From Hydrogenophilales bacterium RIFOXYD1_FULL_62_11 (GTDB lineage Bacteria > Pseudomonadota > Gammaproteobacteria > Burkholderiales > Thiobacillaceae), in the NCBI GenBank assembly GCA_001802655.1, contig MGZO01000073.1, positions 28,818 through 61,520 on the forward strand: DNA of 32,703 nt, written 5' to 3'. This document shows, piece after piece, positions 1 through 6,517 of the stretch. A program made the translations under genes and the position numbers. Each line of letters starts with the position of its first letter. The first letter of the stretch is position 1. Under the pieces are notes generated by a model. It was not told the DNA's origin. It was given only the letters and a program-made list of their open reading frames with translations, and did no database searches.

Positions 1-504
1 TCTATTCCTGCTGACAACCAGCTTTTTCAATGGCTCAAGGCGCAACCAGGCGACATTTTAGTGCGTGCATATCTGGCGCAGCATTACATGAACACCGGGC
101 GCATCCGCGAAGCTATCGGTCAATACGAAATTATTTTGCAGCAGTCGCCGAACAATGCTCTTGCGCTTAATAACGTGGCGGCGCTTTACCAGCAGCAAAA
201 GGATCCGCGCGCGCTCGCTACTGCGGAAAAAGCCCACAAACTCAGCCCAAAGGATGCTGCCACCCAAGACACCTTGGGCTGGATTTTAGTGGAACGGGGG
301 CAGCATGTGCGTGGCCTTACGCTATTGCGACAAGCCAGTGCTGGCGCCCCTGCGTCCGCTTCCATCAAGTATCACCTCGCAGTCGCGTTGGTTCGCACCG
401 GTGATTCGGTTGAAGCTCAAAAAATACTCCGGAAGCTATTGCTCAGCAATGCTCCCAAATTTCCGGAAGCAGAAGAGGCAGCGGCTTTGCTGCGAAGCCT
501 CTGA
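1..504 (+). CDS. TPR-repeat protein, C-terminal part (5' truncated by window); probably PEP-CTERM system TPR lipoprotein PrsT-like
   Basis: Frame 1 is open from base 1 (SIPADNQLFQWLKAQPGDILVRAYLAQHYMNTGRIREAIGQYEIILQQSPNNALALNNVAALY...) to TGA at 504; clear TPR pattern. PrsT assignment inferred from the neighbouring PEP-CTERM genes. Confidence 0.7.
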   Translation, partial: SIPADNQLFQWLKAQPGDILVRAYLAQHYMNTGRIREAIGQYEIILQQSPNNALALNNVAALYQQQKDPRALATAEKAHKLSPKDAATQDTLGWILVERGQHVRGLTLLRQASAGAPASASIKYHLAVALVRTGDSVEAQKILRKLLLSNAPKFPEAEEAAALLRSL

Positions 505-550: not shown

Positions 551-1426
551 CTATGCGAAAGGATCGTTTTTTAGTCCGCCCAAGGCAAAAAACAAACGCA
601 AATCGGTCAAGTCACGGCGATAACGCGGCTTGAGTTCACCCCGCAATGCAGCGATGCGCTGTCGAAAAGCTTCAGGCAGCGGTTTGTCTGCTGTTTTGAT
701 AACAACAAGAAACGGTACTTTGAAGGTGGATTGCACACAAACTTCAAGTGAGAAATATTTGGCCGCCAAGGCCACAAAGTCTTCCTTAAGAAAGGCTGCA
801 CGTAGCGAGCGTTCGTAATCGAGAGAAAACAGATGGGGCTGGTGATGGGCATTGGCATAGGCGAAAAAAATCACTGACTGCAATGATTTGAGCCGCCCAA
901 AGTCAGTTAAATACAAGGCACCACCTGGTTTCAACACCCGCTGAATTTCGGCAAAACACCTGTCCAAATGCTCTGGTGTCGGCAGGTGATGCAAGGCCAT
1001 GGTGCTGATCACCGCATCCATACTGTGATCCTCAAACGCATCCAGGCGGGTGATATCGGCTTGGCGAAAATCTACATTGTGAAGTTTCAGCGCCTCGGTA
1101 TGCAGCCTTGCGTCAGCCAGCATATTGGGAGACAGATCGATTCCGGTAAAGTGGATGTCCGGGTTGAGTTGGGCAATTTGTGCCAATTGAGTTGCCGGAC
1201 CGCACCCCAAATCAAGCACCGTCCGGCATTCCTGAATGACTTGGCTGATGTGGGCTGAATGAAATAAATAAGCCGCTGCCATCGCACCATTGATACGGCC
1301 AGCCTCCGCATAGGCTGCAACCTGCTCCGCATCTTCCATTACTAAATCGGGCTCAGGTTCGCGCGGCAGGCTCCGTGAGACGAGACATTCACGCAGGAAC
1401 GTAGGGATCAGGGCAAGATTGGGCAT
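551..1426 (-). CDS. Class I SAM-dependent methyltransferase
   Basis: ORF 291 aa; motif I VLDLGCGPATQLAQIA, FTGIDLSPNML, MALHHLPTPEHLDRCFAEIQRVLKPGGALYLTDFG. Confidence 0.85.
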   Translation of the reverse strand: MPNLALIPTFLRECLVSRSLPREPEPDLVMEDAEQVAAYAEAGRINGAMAAAYLFHSAHISQVIQECRTVLDLGCGPATQLAQIAQLNPDIHFTGIDLSPNMLADARLHTEALKLHNVDFRQADITRLDAFEDHSMDAVISTMALHHLPTPEHLDRCFAEIQRVLKPGGALYLTDFGRLKSLQSVIFFAYANAHHQPHLFSLDYERSLRAAFLKEDFVALAAKYFSLEVCVQSTFKVPFLVVIKTADKPLPEAFRQRIAALRGELKPRYRRDLTDLRLFFALGGLKNDPFA

Positions 1427-1524: not shown

Positions 1525-2316
1525 TCAGGCAGATTTACGCTTGCGCAGTGAAACGCCCATGCCCAAGAGGCCCAAGCCAACCAGAGCCAGGACACCGGGT
1601 TCCGGAACGGTGGTCAGGCCACGCAGGTCAGCCGAGCCAGCGATACACCATTGACCCTCAACCGCGTCGCCAGTCGTACAGCCGTCTGTATTGTCAAACG
1701 GATTTAGTACGGCATTGTCACCAGAGGTGGTGATCGCGATGTCAGCAAAGCCGCCTGCACCGTCACCAATGCCATCGGAATCGAGGAAAGCGACTACGTC
1801 AGCCTCGCCACCAACAACATCCAGAAGGCCAGCACCGCTAAAGGAGATGACATCGCCGGTAAACTGACCGTTGGATGCAAGCGTGTCGGTCGTGCCAAAC
1901 AAGCCATGCCCTTCCAAAACAGCCCAAGGCGTACCCGTATCGATCAGACCAAAGTTGGTTGCCGAATCCTGTGCCAACAAGTTGAAAGTAGGCATCAGGT
2001 AAACGCGCACCTGCCCTGCGGAGAAATCAACAGTGGTAAAGGTGTAGTCGTTGCTAACGTATTGGTCAAACACAAAATAGAGGCGATCGGATCCGCTGCC
2101 GTAGAACAGGTTGCCGTTCACGGTATTGACTTGGCCGTATCCGAGCAACTGCTGACCGTTGCCGCTAATAAACGTTTCTGCCACAGTCGTGGTTTCAAGA
2201 TGGCTGAGCAAGCCCGCGGCGCCAAAGTCCACACCACCAACAACGATAGCTGAAGCGGAACCGGAAGCCGCCAGGCCCAGACCGGCAATTGCCGATGCGA
2301 TAAATTTCTTGTTCAT
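1525..2316 (-). CDS. PEP-CTERM sorting domain-containing exported protein
   Basis: 263 aa with N-terminal signal peptide MNKKFIASAIAGLGLAASGSASA and C-terminal VPEPGVLALVGLGLLGMGVSLRKRKSA (PEP motif, TM segment, basic tail). RBS AAGGAG upstream. Confidence 0.93.
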   Translation of the reverse strand: MNKKFIASAIAGLGLAASGSASAIVVGGVDFGAAGLLSHLETTTVAETFISGNGQQLLGYGQVNTVNGNLFYGSGSDRLYFVFDQYVSNDYTFTTVDFSAGQVRVYLMPTFNLLAQDSATNFGLIDTGTPWAVLEGHGLFGTTDTLASNGQFTGDVISFSGAGLLDVVGGEADVVAFLDSDGIGDGAGGFADIAITTSGDNAVLNPFDNTDGCTTGDAVEGQWCIAGSADLRGLTTVPEPGVLALVGLGLLGMGVSLRKRKSA

Positions 2317-2389: not shown

Positions 2390-2405
2390 AGCATGTAGCG
2401 TGCCA
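2390..2405 (-). promoter_or_regulatory. Sigma-54 (-24/-12) promoter for the PEP-CTERM gene
   Basis: Minus strand reads TGGCACGCTACATGCT versus consensus TGGCACG-N4-TTGC[A/T]; GG and GC dinucleotides at canonical spacing; predicted 5'UTR about 60 nt. Confidence 0.75.
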
Positions 2406-2652: not shown

Positions 2653-3708
2653 TCAGGACTTTTCCAGAAATTGTTCGATGGCTGGCCGGCCAGCTGTGAC
2701 GAGTGGGGGCTTGGCTTTGCCTGTTCTGAACAACATGACCGGCACGAGCGAGCCGAAGTGGATTTTCCAGCCTTCAGCCAGGTCCTGCTGCAACGCTTTC
2801 GGAATACCTGCTGCATCGGCTCCATCTAGTGCATAAAGAGCCGATGCGGGCATGGGTTGCAGGACGCGTCCCAGGCGGGTTGTGGTCAGCCAGATCCGCT
2901 GGAAAACCCGACCCGCCTCGAAGACCGAAGCGGTGTCGGTTTTTTTTACGGTCAACACGCCCAGGTTGGGGGCGAGCCGACACGGCAGGTCGCAGGAACG
3001 CAGCCCCAAAAAGTGGTGCGCGCCAAACCGGTTGGCCATGCGCATGACGGGCCAATGGCGCAGCGTTGAAAAGAGACCGTGCAAGGGCAATTCAACCCCC
3101 AGTGCGCCGGGCGGCAGCCCTGTTTCGCTGGTATCGCGCCAGCCGACGTCAAAGCGGATTGCAGAGAAAAGTTCTTCGTGCAAAACCGGGTTGTGGAAAC
3201 GTTCGGTTTCTGCGCGCCGCATCAGGGCAAGCACGGGTTTTCGATCAGCGGCGGTGTCAAGCCAGTGAAGGGTACATGAGGGGTGAGCGTAAGTAATGGC
3301 ATCCAGTTGAGCGCGCTCCGTGACATTAAACGGCGGCCCCCGAAAACGAAACTGGCGGCTGGTGTGGCGATTCGGGATTTCGTGCCACAAAGGATCAGCC
3401 TGTGTCACGTCAGGCTGCAAATCAATGCTTAGCGCAAGCCCGGGTTGTTCGGGGTCGGGAAAAAGCCTCATATCGGCCTTTACGCCATACTGGCTGGCGG
3501 CAATCGCGAGGTTTTCTGCCAGCGCGCCGAGCGAAAGCAGGTCGAGCACCCGCTGATATCCCGGCTGTTCCCATGCGGTTCGGGTGTGGTGAACCAGGAT
3601 GTGCGAGCCGTCAAGCTGAAAGCGTACGGGATGGTGGTTGTCGGCGGACGGTGCCTGGATGGCGCTTTGCAGCACGCCACGAACCTGTTCCTGCGTGATC
3701 GCTTCCAT
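2653..3708 (-). CDS. Nitroreductase-like (FMN-dependent fold) protein, 351 aa
   Basis: MEAITQEQVRGVLQSAIQAPSADNHHPVRFQLDG resembles the nitroreductase N-terminal APSxxNxQPWRF segment. Start chosen at 3708, overlapping the stop of the upstream gene by one base (TGATG), rather than the 418-aa ORF start. Confidence 0.75.
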   Translation of the reverse strand: MEAITQEQVRGVLQSAIQAPSADNHHPVRFQLDGSHILVHHTRTAWEQPGYQRVLDLLSLGALAENLAIAASQYGVKADMRLFPDPEQPGLALSIDLQPDVTQADPLWHEIPNRHTSRQFRFRGPPFNVTERAQLDAITYAHPSCTLHWLDTAADRKPVLALMRRAETERFHNPVLHEELFSAIRFDVGWRDTSETGLPPGALGVELPLHGLFSTLRHWPVMRMANRFGAHHFLGLRSCDLPCRLAPNLGVLTVKKTDTASVFEAGRVFQRIWLTTTRLGRVLQPMPASALYALDGADAAGIPKALQQDLAEGWKIHFGSLVPVMLFRTGKAKPPLVTAGRPAIEQFLEKS

Positions 3709-4565
3709 CAAGCCAACCCCAGTTGGCGGCGTGCGATGGCGATGGCGATCCGGTTGAGTGGATGGCGGTTGCCACCGGGGCGCCAGGTATGGGCGAGCTG
3801 GTTGCGGTAGCCGTCGAACTGGATGCCGTGCGGTGCGCTCCAGACCTTGCCGCGTTGCAGCAGGATTTTGACCGCTTCGCTGGCCGCCACGCCTGCGCAT
3901 AACTGACATGCAATCACGGTTGAGGGACCTTTTCGCTGTTTCAGGTCGACCTTGTTTTTGTCGGCGAGGTAGTGGCGATGCAACAATCCGGGCGCGAGTC
4001 CGACGAGAAAACGCACGGCTTTTTCCAGTTCGCTCCGACCTGACAGCTGAAAGTAATCTTCGAAACTCATGCCGCCAGGCAGGAAGTTCAGTAATGCCGC
4101 ACTCATGCCCAAGGGCGCAACGGTGATGGCCGGGATACGGTGTTCAGCGCAGTAGGCAAAAAGCTGTTCGCGGGCATCGAAAGCAAAAAAGTCCAGACCG
4201 TCCACATAAAGATCGACATCCTGGAAAAACTGCTCAAGATTAGACGCGTTCACCCCGTCAGGGAAACGCCTCAAGTCACTTTCCGGATTAATGTCGCGCA
4301 CCATCGCTTCAAGCGTGTCGACTTTGGGGCGATTGAGACTGGACATGCTGGCGCCCGCCTGACGGTTGAAATTGGCTAATTCAAAAACGTCGAAGTCGGC
4401 GATATTGAATTTTTCTACACCCAGCCGCGCAAATGTCAGCAAATGGGAGCCGCCGACTCCGCCCATGCCAGCAATGGCCACGCGTTTGTGCTTCAGTTGC
4501 TGCTGCTCGTTGTCAGTAAACCAGCCTATATTGCGCGAAAATGCAGCGCTGTAATCGAAGCTCAT
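3708..4565 (-). CDS. ThiF/MoeB/HesA (E1-like) adenylyltransferase family protein
   Basis: VAIAGMGGVGGSHLLTFARLGVEKFNIADFDVFELANFNRQAGA nucleotide-binding signature; CQLCAGVAASEAVKILL C-terminal region. Confidence 0.88.
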   Translation of the reverse strand: MSFDYSAAFSRNIGWFTDNEQQQLKHKRVAIAGMGGVGGSHLLTFARLGVEKFNIADFDVFELANFNRQAGASMSSLNRPKVDTLEAMVRDINPESDLRRFPDGVNASNLEQFFQDVDLYVDGLDFFAFDAREQLFAYCAEHRIPAITVAPLGMSAALLNFLPGGMSFEDYFQLSGRSELEKAVRFLVGLAPGLLHRHYLADKNKVDLKQRKGPSTVIACQLCAGVAASEAVKILLQRGKVWSAPHGIQFDGYRNQLAHTWRPGGNRHPLNRIAIAIARRQLGLA

Positions 4566-4583
4566 GCAGGTCCGCCTAACACG

Positions 4584-5378
4584 CTACCTACCGTGAGTAA
4601 CACGATTGGTAATGCCGATTTCGTCTGTTTTGCTGAAAAAGTAAGGGTATAGCGACCGTTCGCCATGTGCGCTTTCGGTTTTCCCGCCGAGTAACTCGAT
4701 TTGCTGGTCAACATAATCCAGCTCCAGTCGCAGCAACACGGCAGGCGCATTGACGCGGTTGCAGATGCGTTCCGGGCCGAAATCGGTAAAGCCCAGCATG
4801 CGTTTGTAGAACGCAGCATGGCGTGGATTAACCTCAATCACGACATCTGTATAGCCCTGCATCACCCGGCCATATATGTAGGCAATATGAAAGAGCGATG
4901 CCAGAATGTGTTTTGAGCCGTGTGTTTGATCAACGGCCAGCTTGGTCAGTTCGCAGACTTTACGGCCAGCCTGACGCAAGTCATCTATTTCCTGCTTGTA
5001 TAACTCTTCAACCAACAACCCATGGGGGGTGTCCAGGCCCAGCGTCAGGGTTCCGATGACTTTGTCATCCTGGGACGCCATCAAGGTAATGCGTTCTGGG
5101 GCTTTCTGGAAGTCGTTCGCTATATAGCCGCGCCCGGCATATTTTCGCTGCACAAGCATGCTGGCCGAGCTCACCCGCTCGTTGGAATGTGCCAGCCGGA
5201 TCTTGAAAGCCTGCTCTTCGATTTTTTCGCCCTGCTGAGGCGTGGCACTTTGAGGCTCGGGTAAAACCAGGTCAGTAAGCCGATACGGAGAGATGGCGAC
5301 AATTGTTTTGTCCCATTCTTCCGCAGCCTTGTTGCGCTGTCTAAAACCGGTAAAGCCCTTGGGTATCTTGACGGACAT
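4584..5378 (-). CDS. PEP-CTERM/exosortase-associated acyltransferase, FeeM-like N-acyl amino acid synthase
   Basis: 264 aa GNAT-like protein; FKIRLAHSNERVSSASMLVQRKYAGRGY..., VCELTKLAVDQ, HIAYIYGRVMQGYTDVVIEVNPRHAAFYKRMLGF resemble the long-chain N-acyl amino acid synthase / exosortase-associated acyltransferase family. Confidence 0.8.
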   Translation of the reverse strand: MSVKIPKGFTGFRQRNKAAEEWDKTIVAISPYRLTDLVLPEPQSATPQQGEKIEEQAFKIRLAHSNERVSSASMLVQRKYAGRGYIANDFQKAPERITLMASQDDKVIGTLTLGLDTPHGLLVEELYKQEIDDLRQAGRKVCELTKLAVDQTHGSKHILASLFHIAYIYGRVMQGYTDVVIEVNPRHAAFYKRMLGFTDFGPERICNRVNAPAVLLRLELDYVDQQIELLGGKTESAHGERSLYPYFFSKTDEIGITNRVTHGR

Positions 5379-5423
5379 AAATTAAACCGGGATAAATGAG
5401 ATCGTAGTTAGGGTTGCCATGTT

Positions 5424-5439
5424 AGCCACTCGTTTGCCA
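5424..5439 (-). promoter_or_regulatory. Possible (weaker) sigma-54 promoter for the acyltransferase operon
   Basis: Minus strand TGGCAAACGAGTGGCT: GG/GC at canonical 11-nt offset, partial match to -24 and -12 consensus; 5'UTR would be about 35 nt. Confidence 0.35.
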
Positions 5440-5494
5440 TAGCTGGCAACCTTTTAGTGATTATGGATGCAGGGCTAACACGAATCAGTCTTGC

Positions 5495-6517
<1,023 letters not shown>

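Follow-up and report, generated by a model that had tools for sequence, protein, structure and literature searches.

In a stretch of 32,703 nucleotides (hereafter the window) on contig MGZO01000073.1 of Hydrogenophilales bacterium RIFOXYD1_FULL_62_11, we find three genes that very probably encode an acyl-oxazolone (azlactone) lipid pathway, a module that, in its genus as in many further Proteobacteria, forms part of the extended XrtA/PEP-CTERM/exopolysaccharide gene set. All three lie on the minus strand and encode a FeeM-type N-acyl amino acid synthase (4584..5378, 264 amino acids; Pfam FeeM, 183 bits, E-value 3e-54), a ThiF/E1-like protein predicted to be an ATP-dependent cyclase in the role of TyzB (3708..4565, 285 amino acids; Pfam ThiF, 146 bits) and a flavin mononucleotide (FMN)-dependent oxidase (FDO) of the nitroreductase superfamily, predicted to be an O2-dependent alpha,beta-desaturase in the role of TyzC (2653..3708, 351 amino acids). 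Synthase and cyclase genes are 18 bp apart (4566-4583), and the TGA of the latter overlaps the ATG of the flavin gene in TGATG with base 3708 in common. Coordinates and Pfam and NCBIfam results thus agree with the layout of three same-strand genes already read from the letters in the original prediction. Open reading frames on the opposite strand within the trio are spurious and were left aside. In NCBIfam the three proteins match successive parts of the 989-amino acid family PRK14852, namely residues 82-212 (synthase), 313-587 (ThiF-like protein) and 611-803 (FDO). That all three fit consecutive segments of one polypeptide is an argument for their action in one pathway. The arrangement of the trio is far beyond chance, since its gene order is found again in numerous lineages and also in the form of a single fused protein.

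By analogy with homologues, in which others have shown the three reactions, the synthase would N-acylate an amino acid with a fatty acyl group taken from acyl carrier protein or coenzyme A; this amino acid is probably aromatic, as it is in the homologues studied. The ThiF-like enzyme would then adenylate the free carboxylate with ATP, and attack by the amide oxygen would close a 5(4H)-oxazolone. The FMN oxidase would pass two hydrogens from C-alpha and C-beta to O2 to give a 4-alkylidene oxazolone, which after ring opening would become an N-acyl-2,3-dehydro amino acid. Most likely the lipid acts at the envelope or within the matrix of the biofilm, or else it is a signal connected with these. 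Families, residues, folds, gene order and co-occurrence were computed here; for this organism we infer the substrate, the product and the role of the latter. The acyl-oxazolone proposal is supported by the fit of each protein to the family of its step, by the PRK14852 fusion and by the invariant ATP-site residues of the cyclase. A further support is that both sequence and fold of the FDO come nearest to Acg (2ymv), the structure also named as closest to the TrzS oxidase.

The cyclase scores 442 bits against the ThiF-like family PRK08223 (NF006077; cut-off 266), and its nearest PDB profile matches are TcdA, ThiF and MoeB. TcdA, for which closure of an oxazolone ring on tRNA has been reported (PMC4405576), makes a fitting comparison. 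In the PDB profile alignment, with positions counted by hand, cyclase residues N65, R68, K81 and D125 align with TcdA N69, R72, K85 and D130, of which N69, R72 and K85 are reported to contact ATP (PMC4405576). These four residues and R11 are invariant in 42 of 42 aligned cyclase homologues, and the nucleotide loop reads GMGGVGG. The adenylation site, with its ATP-binding Asn, Arg and Lys and its conserved Asp, is intact, which bears out the earlier statement that E1-like motifs are retained. The structure predictions proposed at that time were run for cyclase and oxidase, and both AlphaFold models are confident. The cyclase model, with a predicted local distance difference test (pLDDT) value of 93.7, has an E1-type fold like those of AclA, ThiF and MoeB; the oxidase model (pLDDT 93.3) has the Acg fold, with 2ymv as best match (E-value 9e-15).

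Pfam sees the nitroreductase domain of the flavin protein weakly (E-value 0.006). Its family is settled by that fold together with NCBIfam scores of 119 bits to the Acg family, 130 bits to PRK14851 and 111 bits to the Rv1355c family PRK07877, and by a PDB profile match to Acg 2ymv (E-value 4e-18), the structure also named as closest to the TrzS oxidase (PMC12856293). The comparison with Rv1355c drawn in the original prediction was apt. Residues R170 (conserved in 38/39 homologues) and Q284 (36/39) stand at distances fitting R540 and Q651 of TrzS, a placement by spacing rather than by alignment to TrzS. Two oxidase types occur in our set. One is that of the window, always a separate gene and ranging from 85% to 34% identity; the other has 20-28% identity and is either separate or fused. 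The window type may correspond to subcluster FDO-A23, which holds TyzC and occurs in Actinobacteria, Betaproteobacteria and Hydrogenophilalia (PMC10404671). Where a strong oxidase match is present in the genus, it adjoins the cyclase. At one locus (L054:7845-10035), one FDO gene of each type follows the cyclase in tandem, the two being 23% and 60% identical to the window FDO.

The pathway had first been taken for an undescribed one, and this part of the original prediction does not stand: OxzAB, TyzACB, TrzAS and clusters of NasY, ThiF and nitroreductase genes have been published (PMC10404671, PMC12856293, PMC12479983). The chemistry proposed with it, namely formation of an N-acyl amino acid, activation of its carboxylate and an FMN-dependent redox step, agrees with the families and with the published homologues. 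The trio is a new member of a published kind of pathway, and its chemistry is well supported. The steps in Mycobacterium tuberculosis are N-acylation of tyrosine or phenylalanine by TyzA, O2-dependent desaturation by TyzC and ATP-dependent cyclisation by TyzB (PMC10404671). TrzA and TrzS (Rv1356c/Rv1355c) carry out the corresponding chemistry on tryptophan to give tryptazolone, and substitutions D217A and R540A in TrzS impair cyclase and desaturase activity (PMC12856293). Ring closure and desaturation by the mycobacterial enzymes have been shown in vitro (PMC10404671, PMC12856293). TyzACB likewise consists of a separate FeeM-like acyltransferase, a ThiF cyclase and a single-domain FDO, but tyzA lies on the strand opposite to tyzC and tyzB, whereas the trio of the window shares one strand, and the tyz locus adjoins mmpL9 rather than PEP-CTERM genes. 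TrzAS has the same chemistry and a related oxidase domain; however, it is fused, and the ThiF part of the window is distant from it, with 49 bits to PRK07877 versus 442 to PRK08223. As cited in two of these papers (PMC10404671, PMC12856293), OxzAB of Pseudoalteromonas rubra, also from Proteobacteria, has the same three activities with cyclase and oxidase fused, whereas the window has two genes overlapping by one base. Massilia kyonggiensis and Thalassotalea also have three separate, tightly spaced NasY, ThiF and nitroreductase genes (PMC12479983), and the cluster of Stieleria maiorica includes or adjoins a PEP-CTERM gene and genes for exopolysaccharide (PMC12479983, PMC7293339). The NasY clusters come from other taxa and have known products, and their exosortase link was noted for single genomes without counts.

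Such counts were obtained from an even set of 274 genomes of the class, of which 26 have a PRK08223 cyclase above cut-off, 77 any exosortase and 50 XrtA. The cyclase is largely confined to XrtA genomes: XrtA occurs in 24/26 cyclase-positive but only 26/248 cyclase-negative genomes (Fisher p=1.7e-18). The corresponding numbers for any exosortase are 25/26 and 52/248 (p=1.3e-14), and by family, with family lists tallied by hand from tables, XrtA is found in 18/20 cyclase-positive versus 19/149 other families (p=3e-12). PrsT, the XrtA/PEP-CTERM tetratricopeptide (TPR)-repeat protein, is encoded in 25 of the 26. The cyclase gene also lies near genes of the XrtA system, within 5 kb of PrsT in 12/26 genomes (0.18 expected), while in 20/26 (0.95 expected) PrsT, XrtA or the XrtA export gene (TIGR03027) is no more than 20 kb away, the expectation being uniform placement along the genome, which ignores general operon clustering. 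The two exceptions are G158, with a TIGR03694 synthase beside the cyclase and no exosortase, and G309, whose exosortase scores under the XrtA cut-off. The neighbourhood analysis suggested earlier thus found conserved co-occurrence, and the module recurs near PEP-CTERM and exosortase genes as had been supposed. The tie to the PEP-CTERM system is strongly patterned but unproven; that the product may serve PEP-CTERM material is so far a genomic association.

The fused form leads to the same kind of locus. Plasmid pDVUL01 of Nitratidesulfovibrio vulgaris DP4, from another phylum, encodes a 989-amino acid protein with all three domains (PRK14852, 2397 bits). PrsT is 1.1 kb away from its gene and the nearer of two PEP-CTERM genes 0.7 kb, all within 0.7-1.7 kb, and the exosortase is about 27 kb away in one exopolysaccharide locus. 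This protein (PRK14852/NF011425) shares with the window the three domains, their order and the exosortase/PEP-CTERM locus, but it is one polypeptide, annotated 'hypothetical protein' or 'ThiF family', where the window has three genes. A plasmid-encoded regulator of D. vulgaris, DVUA0057, targets PEP-CTERM genes, and a plasmid-free strain forms three-fold less biofilm (PMC3333781).

A linkage of N-acyl amino acid synthases to exosortases was already reported by Craig et al. in 2011, as cited in PMC4897644 and PMC7293339, and in 2020 a PEP-CTERM gene was described in the stieleriacine cluster (PMC7293339), so that our result extends a known link. Added here are the observations, with counts, that the cyclase and not only the synthase tracks XrtA, that a three-domain fusion stands in a PEP-CTERM locus and that an MMPL exporter and a LolA-like protein recur nearby. 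In the open-access literature searched, the oxazolone papers make no mention of exosortase, and subscription papers may hold earlier notice; Haft 2006 does not mention ThiF, nitroreductase or acyltransferase.

Three observations weigh against the acyl-oxazolone proposal. First, 26/50 XrtA genomes are without the cyclase, so that exosortase can do without the module. Second, several genomes of the same genus (G005, G013, G016 and G020; loci L029, L032, L033 and L012) have synthase and cyclase without an FDO match. A mere contig-end effect was considered and rejected for this absence, as G005, G013 and G016 are estimated to be 100% complete; in these three a secreted-protein gene follows the cyclase instead, and the follower gene in G026 (L026) encodes a PepA-type PEP-CTERM protein. 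Genomes without an FDO would make a saturated product or rely on a different desaturase. Third, Massilia, Thalassotalea and Stieleria, with the closest gene layout, yielded dehydro-amino acids only and no oxazolone (PMC12479983).

The first of these points would suit a passenger in XrtA loci, that is, a mobile or conserved secondary-metabolite operon whose co-variation with exosortase would reflect that both mark biofilm-forming environmental bacteria. We consider this conceivable, though less likely than not. We know of no exosortase in mycobacteria, which carry both tyz and trz, and the papers on these systems do not mention it; moreover, Pseudovibrio loci have no XrtA genes in the flanks examined. 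However, co-variation alone does not predict adjacency, and the excess of cyclase genes within 5 kb of PrsT is spread over several families, and the Nitratidesulfovibrio plasmid repeats the adjacency in a second phylum. With more doubt than confidence, we suggest that the XrtA/PEP-CTERM system makes functional use of acyl-oxazolones, or of their dehydro-amino acid forms, either as a reactive or anchoring lipid of the outer envelope or as a signal controlling PEP-CTERM and exopolysaccharide genes. If true, these lipids would thereby gain a function. To our knowledge, the partner molecules of the exosortase system are still open. What acyl-oxazolones do is regarded as a major unresolved question (PMC12856293), and the two questions are joined by a cyclase nearly confined to XrtA genomes, often beside PrsT, and by the three-domain fusion in a plasmid PEP-CTERM locus; this link could help to explain the function of these lipids.

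The third point bears on the end product, which could instead be an open-chain N-acyl-2,3-dehydro amino acid such as kyonggic acid, thalassotalic acid or the stieleriacines. Ring closure by the ThiF-like enzyme would then be transient, acidifying C-alpha for the oxidase before the ring is hydrolysed. Massilia kyonggiensis, also of the Betaproteobacteria, and Thalassotalea make N-acyl dehydro-amino acids (PMC12479983), the former from three separate genes like those of the window, and M. umbonata, which has neither ThiF nor nitroreductase, makes saturated acyl amino acids. In TrzS, cyclisation necessarily precedes desaturation (PMC12856293), as this alternative would have it. On the other hand, acid and alcohols open oxazolones at work-up (PMC12856293), so that the isolated acids may be artefacts, and oxazolones have been detected in M. 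tuberculosis, M. smegmatis and RHA1 (PMC10404671, PMC12856293). We regard an open-chain end product as rather unlikely.

The earlier reading of a single CxxC in the E1-like protein was confirmed. It occupies residues 220-223, within a long helix beside the ...AGVAASEAVKIL segment, and is kept in most but not all of the 42 homologues (C220 in 33, C223 in 36); by our reading it is neither of the two zinc pairs of MoeB. Despite the E1 fold and the partial similarity to ThiF/MoeB models, it is very improbable that the partner activated by this enzyme is a small ubiquitin-like or sulfur-carrier protein and that the operon serves sulfur transfer rather than lipid chemistry, since no ubiquitin-like gene adjoins, the sulfur-carrier equivalog cut-offs are missed by far (80 versus 266 bits for PRK05690, 84 versus 275 for TIGR02356), only one CxxC is present and that one is partly conserved, and the Nitratidesulfovibrio protein joins ThiF to FeeM and FDO domains.

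To return to the acyl-oxazolone proposal and its first enzyme, FeeM (2g0b, E-value 1e-11) is the sole PDB sequence match of the synthase. The exosortase-associated acyltransferases of TIGR03694 are also N-acyl amino acid synthases tied to PEP-CTERM, but the window synthase, being FeeM-type, differs from them and has no match to this model at E<=1 (cut-off 112); no TIGR03694 match was found elsewhere in its genome either. A TIGR03694 gene lies less than 1 kb from the cyclase in 11/26 cyclase-positive genomes. In locus L093 of G297 (2881-4110), a FeeM-type synthase that carries a fused CRP-like domain for cyclic-nucleotide binding lies next to cyclase and oxidase, possibly an instance of acyl amino acid synthesis under cyclic-nucleotide control. 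Long FeeM frames were also seen in G207, G319, G112, G117, G130, G151, G260 and G307; the domain scan covered L093.

Within the genus the cyclase was found in 34 of the 37 genomes searched, including its own. The nearest named relatives are in Thiobacillus and Hydrogenophilales, followed by Tepidiphilus-labelled metagenome-assembled genomes, Oxalobacteraceae, Sphaerotilaceae, Methylococcaceae, Marichromatium, Pseudovibrio and Bdellovibrio. In a cyclase tree of 75 rows the fused forms are scattered, with eight changes, at least four of them forced by starred branches; fusion and splitting therefore recur, and fused versus split is no family marker. A search of plasmids for a characterised TrzS gave only a Rhodococcus ThiF, too distant to place in this tree, and a GNAT acyltransferase. 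The 28-kb plasmid of Rhodococcus sp. NJ-530 (L108) carries a ThiF-like gene and a GNAT N-acyltransferase gene with an IS256 transposase between them.

Directly downstream of the trio, on the minus strand, lies the gene of a PEP-CTERM secreted protein (1525..2316; Pfam PEP-CTERM, 27.9 bits, cut-off 20.7), which is a candidate client of the exosortase; L054 and the two relatives nearest to the window have likewise kept a PEP-CTERM gene downstream of the trio. The window opens on the plus strand with the C-terminal end of PrsT (1..504), whose gene starts upstream at about 26.6 kb of the contig (G000:C73) and whose upstream part (L008:12234-14498) scores 611 bits against TIGR02917 (cut-off 312). 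A run of N, either masked sequence or an assembly gap, interrupts this frame at about 14370-14430 of L008, just before the window start. The genome has its main XrtA locus on a different contig (G000:C34). A gene for a class I S-adenosylmethionine methyltransferase (551..1426, minus strand; Pfam Methyltransf_11, 95 bits) separates PrsT from the PEP-CTERM gene. Homologues stand near the trio, PrsT or both in L052, L085 and L102, which makes it a recurring neighbour with an unproven tie to the trio; stieleriacine clusters also hold methyltransferases (PMC12479983). An MMPL/RND transporter, a LolA-like outer-membrane sorting protein or both were seen near the cyclase in L043, L050, L057, L084, L091, L094, L095, L096, L098/L099 and L105, with MMPL exporter and LolA-like protein recurring in L050, L057, L084, L091, L096 and L098. 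Judged by family, these are candidate exporters of the lipid, and the MMPL protein recalls mmpL9 beside tyz in M. tuberculosis.

Upstream of the PEP-CTERM gene, a sigma-54-like -24/-12 site, TGGCACGCTACATGCT (2390..2405, minus strand), has one mismatch to TGGCRYN5TTGCW. The window holds 13 such matches where 7.9 would be expected, so that position alone weakly favours this one. The window scan found no sigma-54 site before the trio, and the promoter and terminator scan gave results at chance level. The upstream DNA can be aligned only among the three closest relatives. Upstream of the trio lies hemB (5495-6499), as it does in many Hydrogenophilales relatives (15/47 named loci), which indicates that the place of the operon is old in the order. 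The 116 bp that separate hemB from the synthase gene contain an inverted repeat at 5412-5451 (GGTTGCCA-24-TGGCAACC), possibly a terminator or operator.

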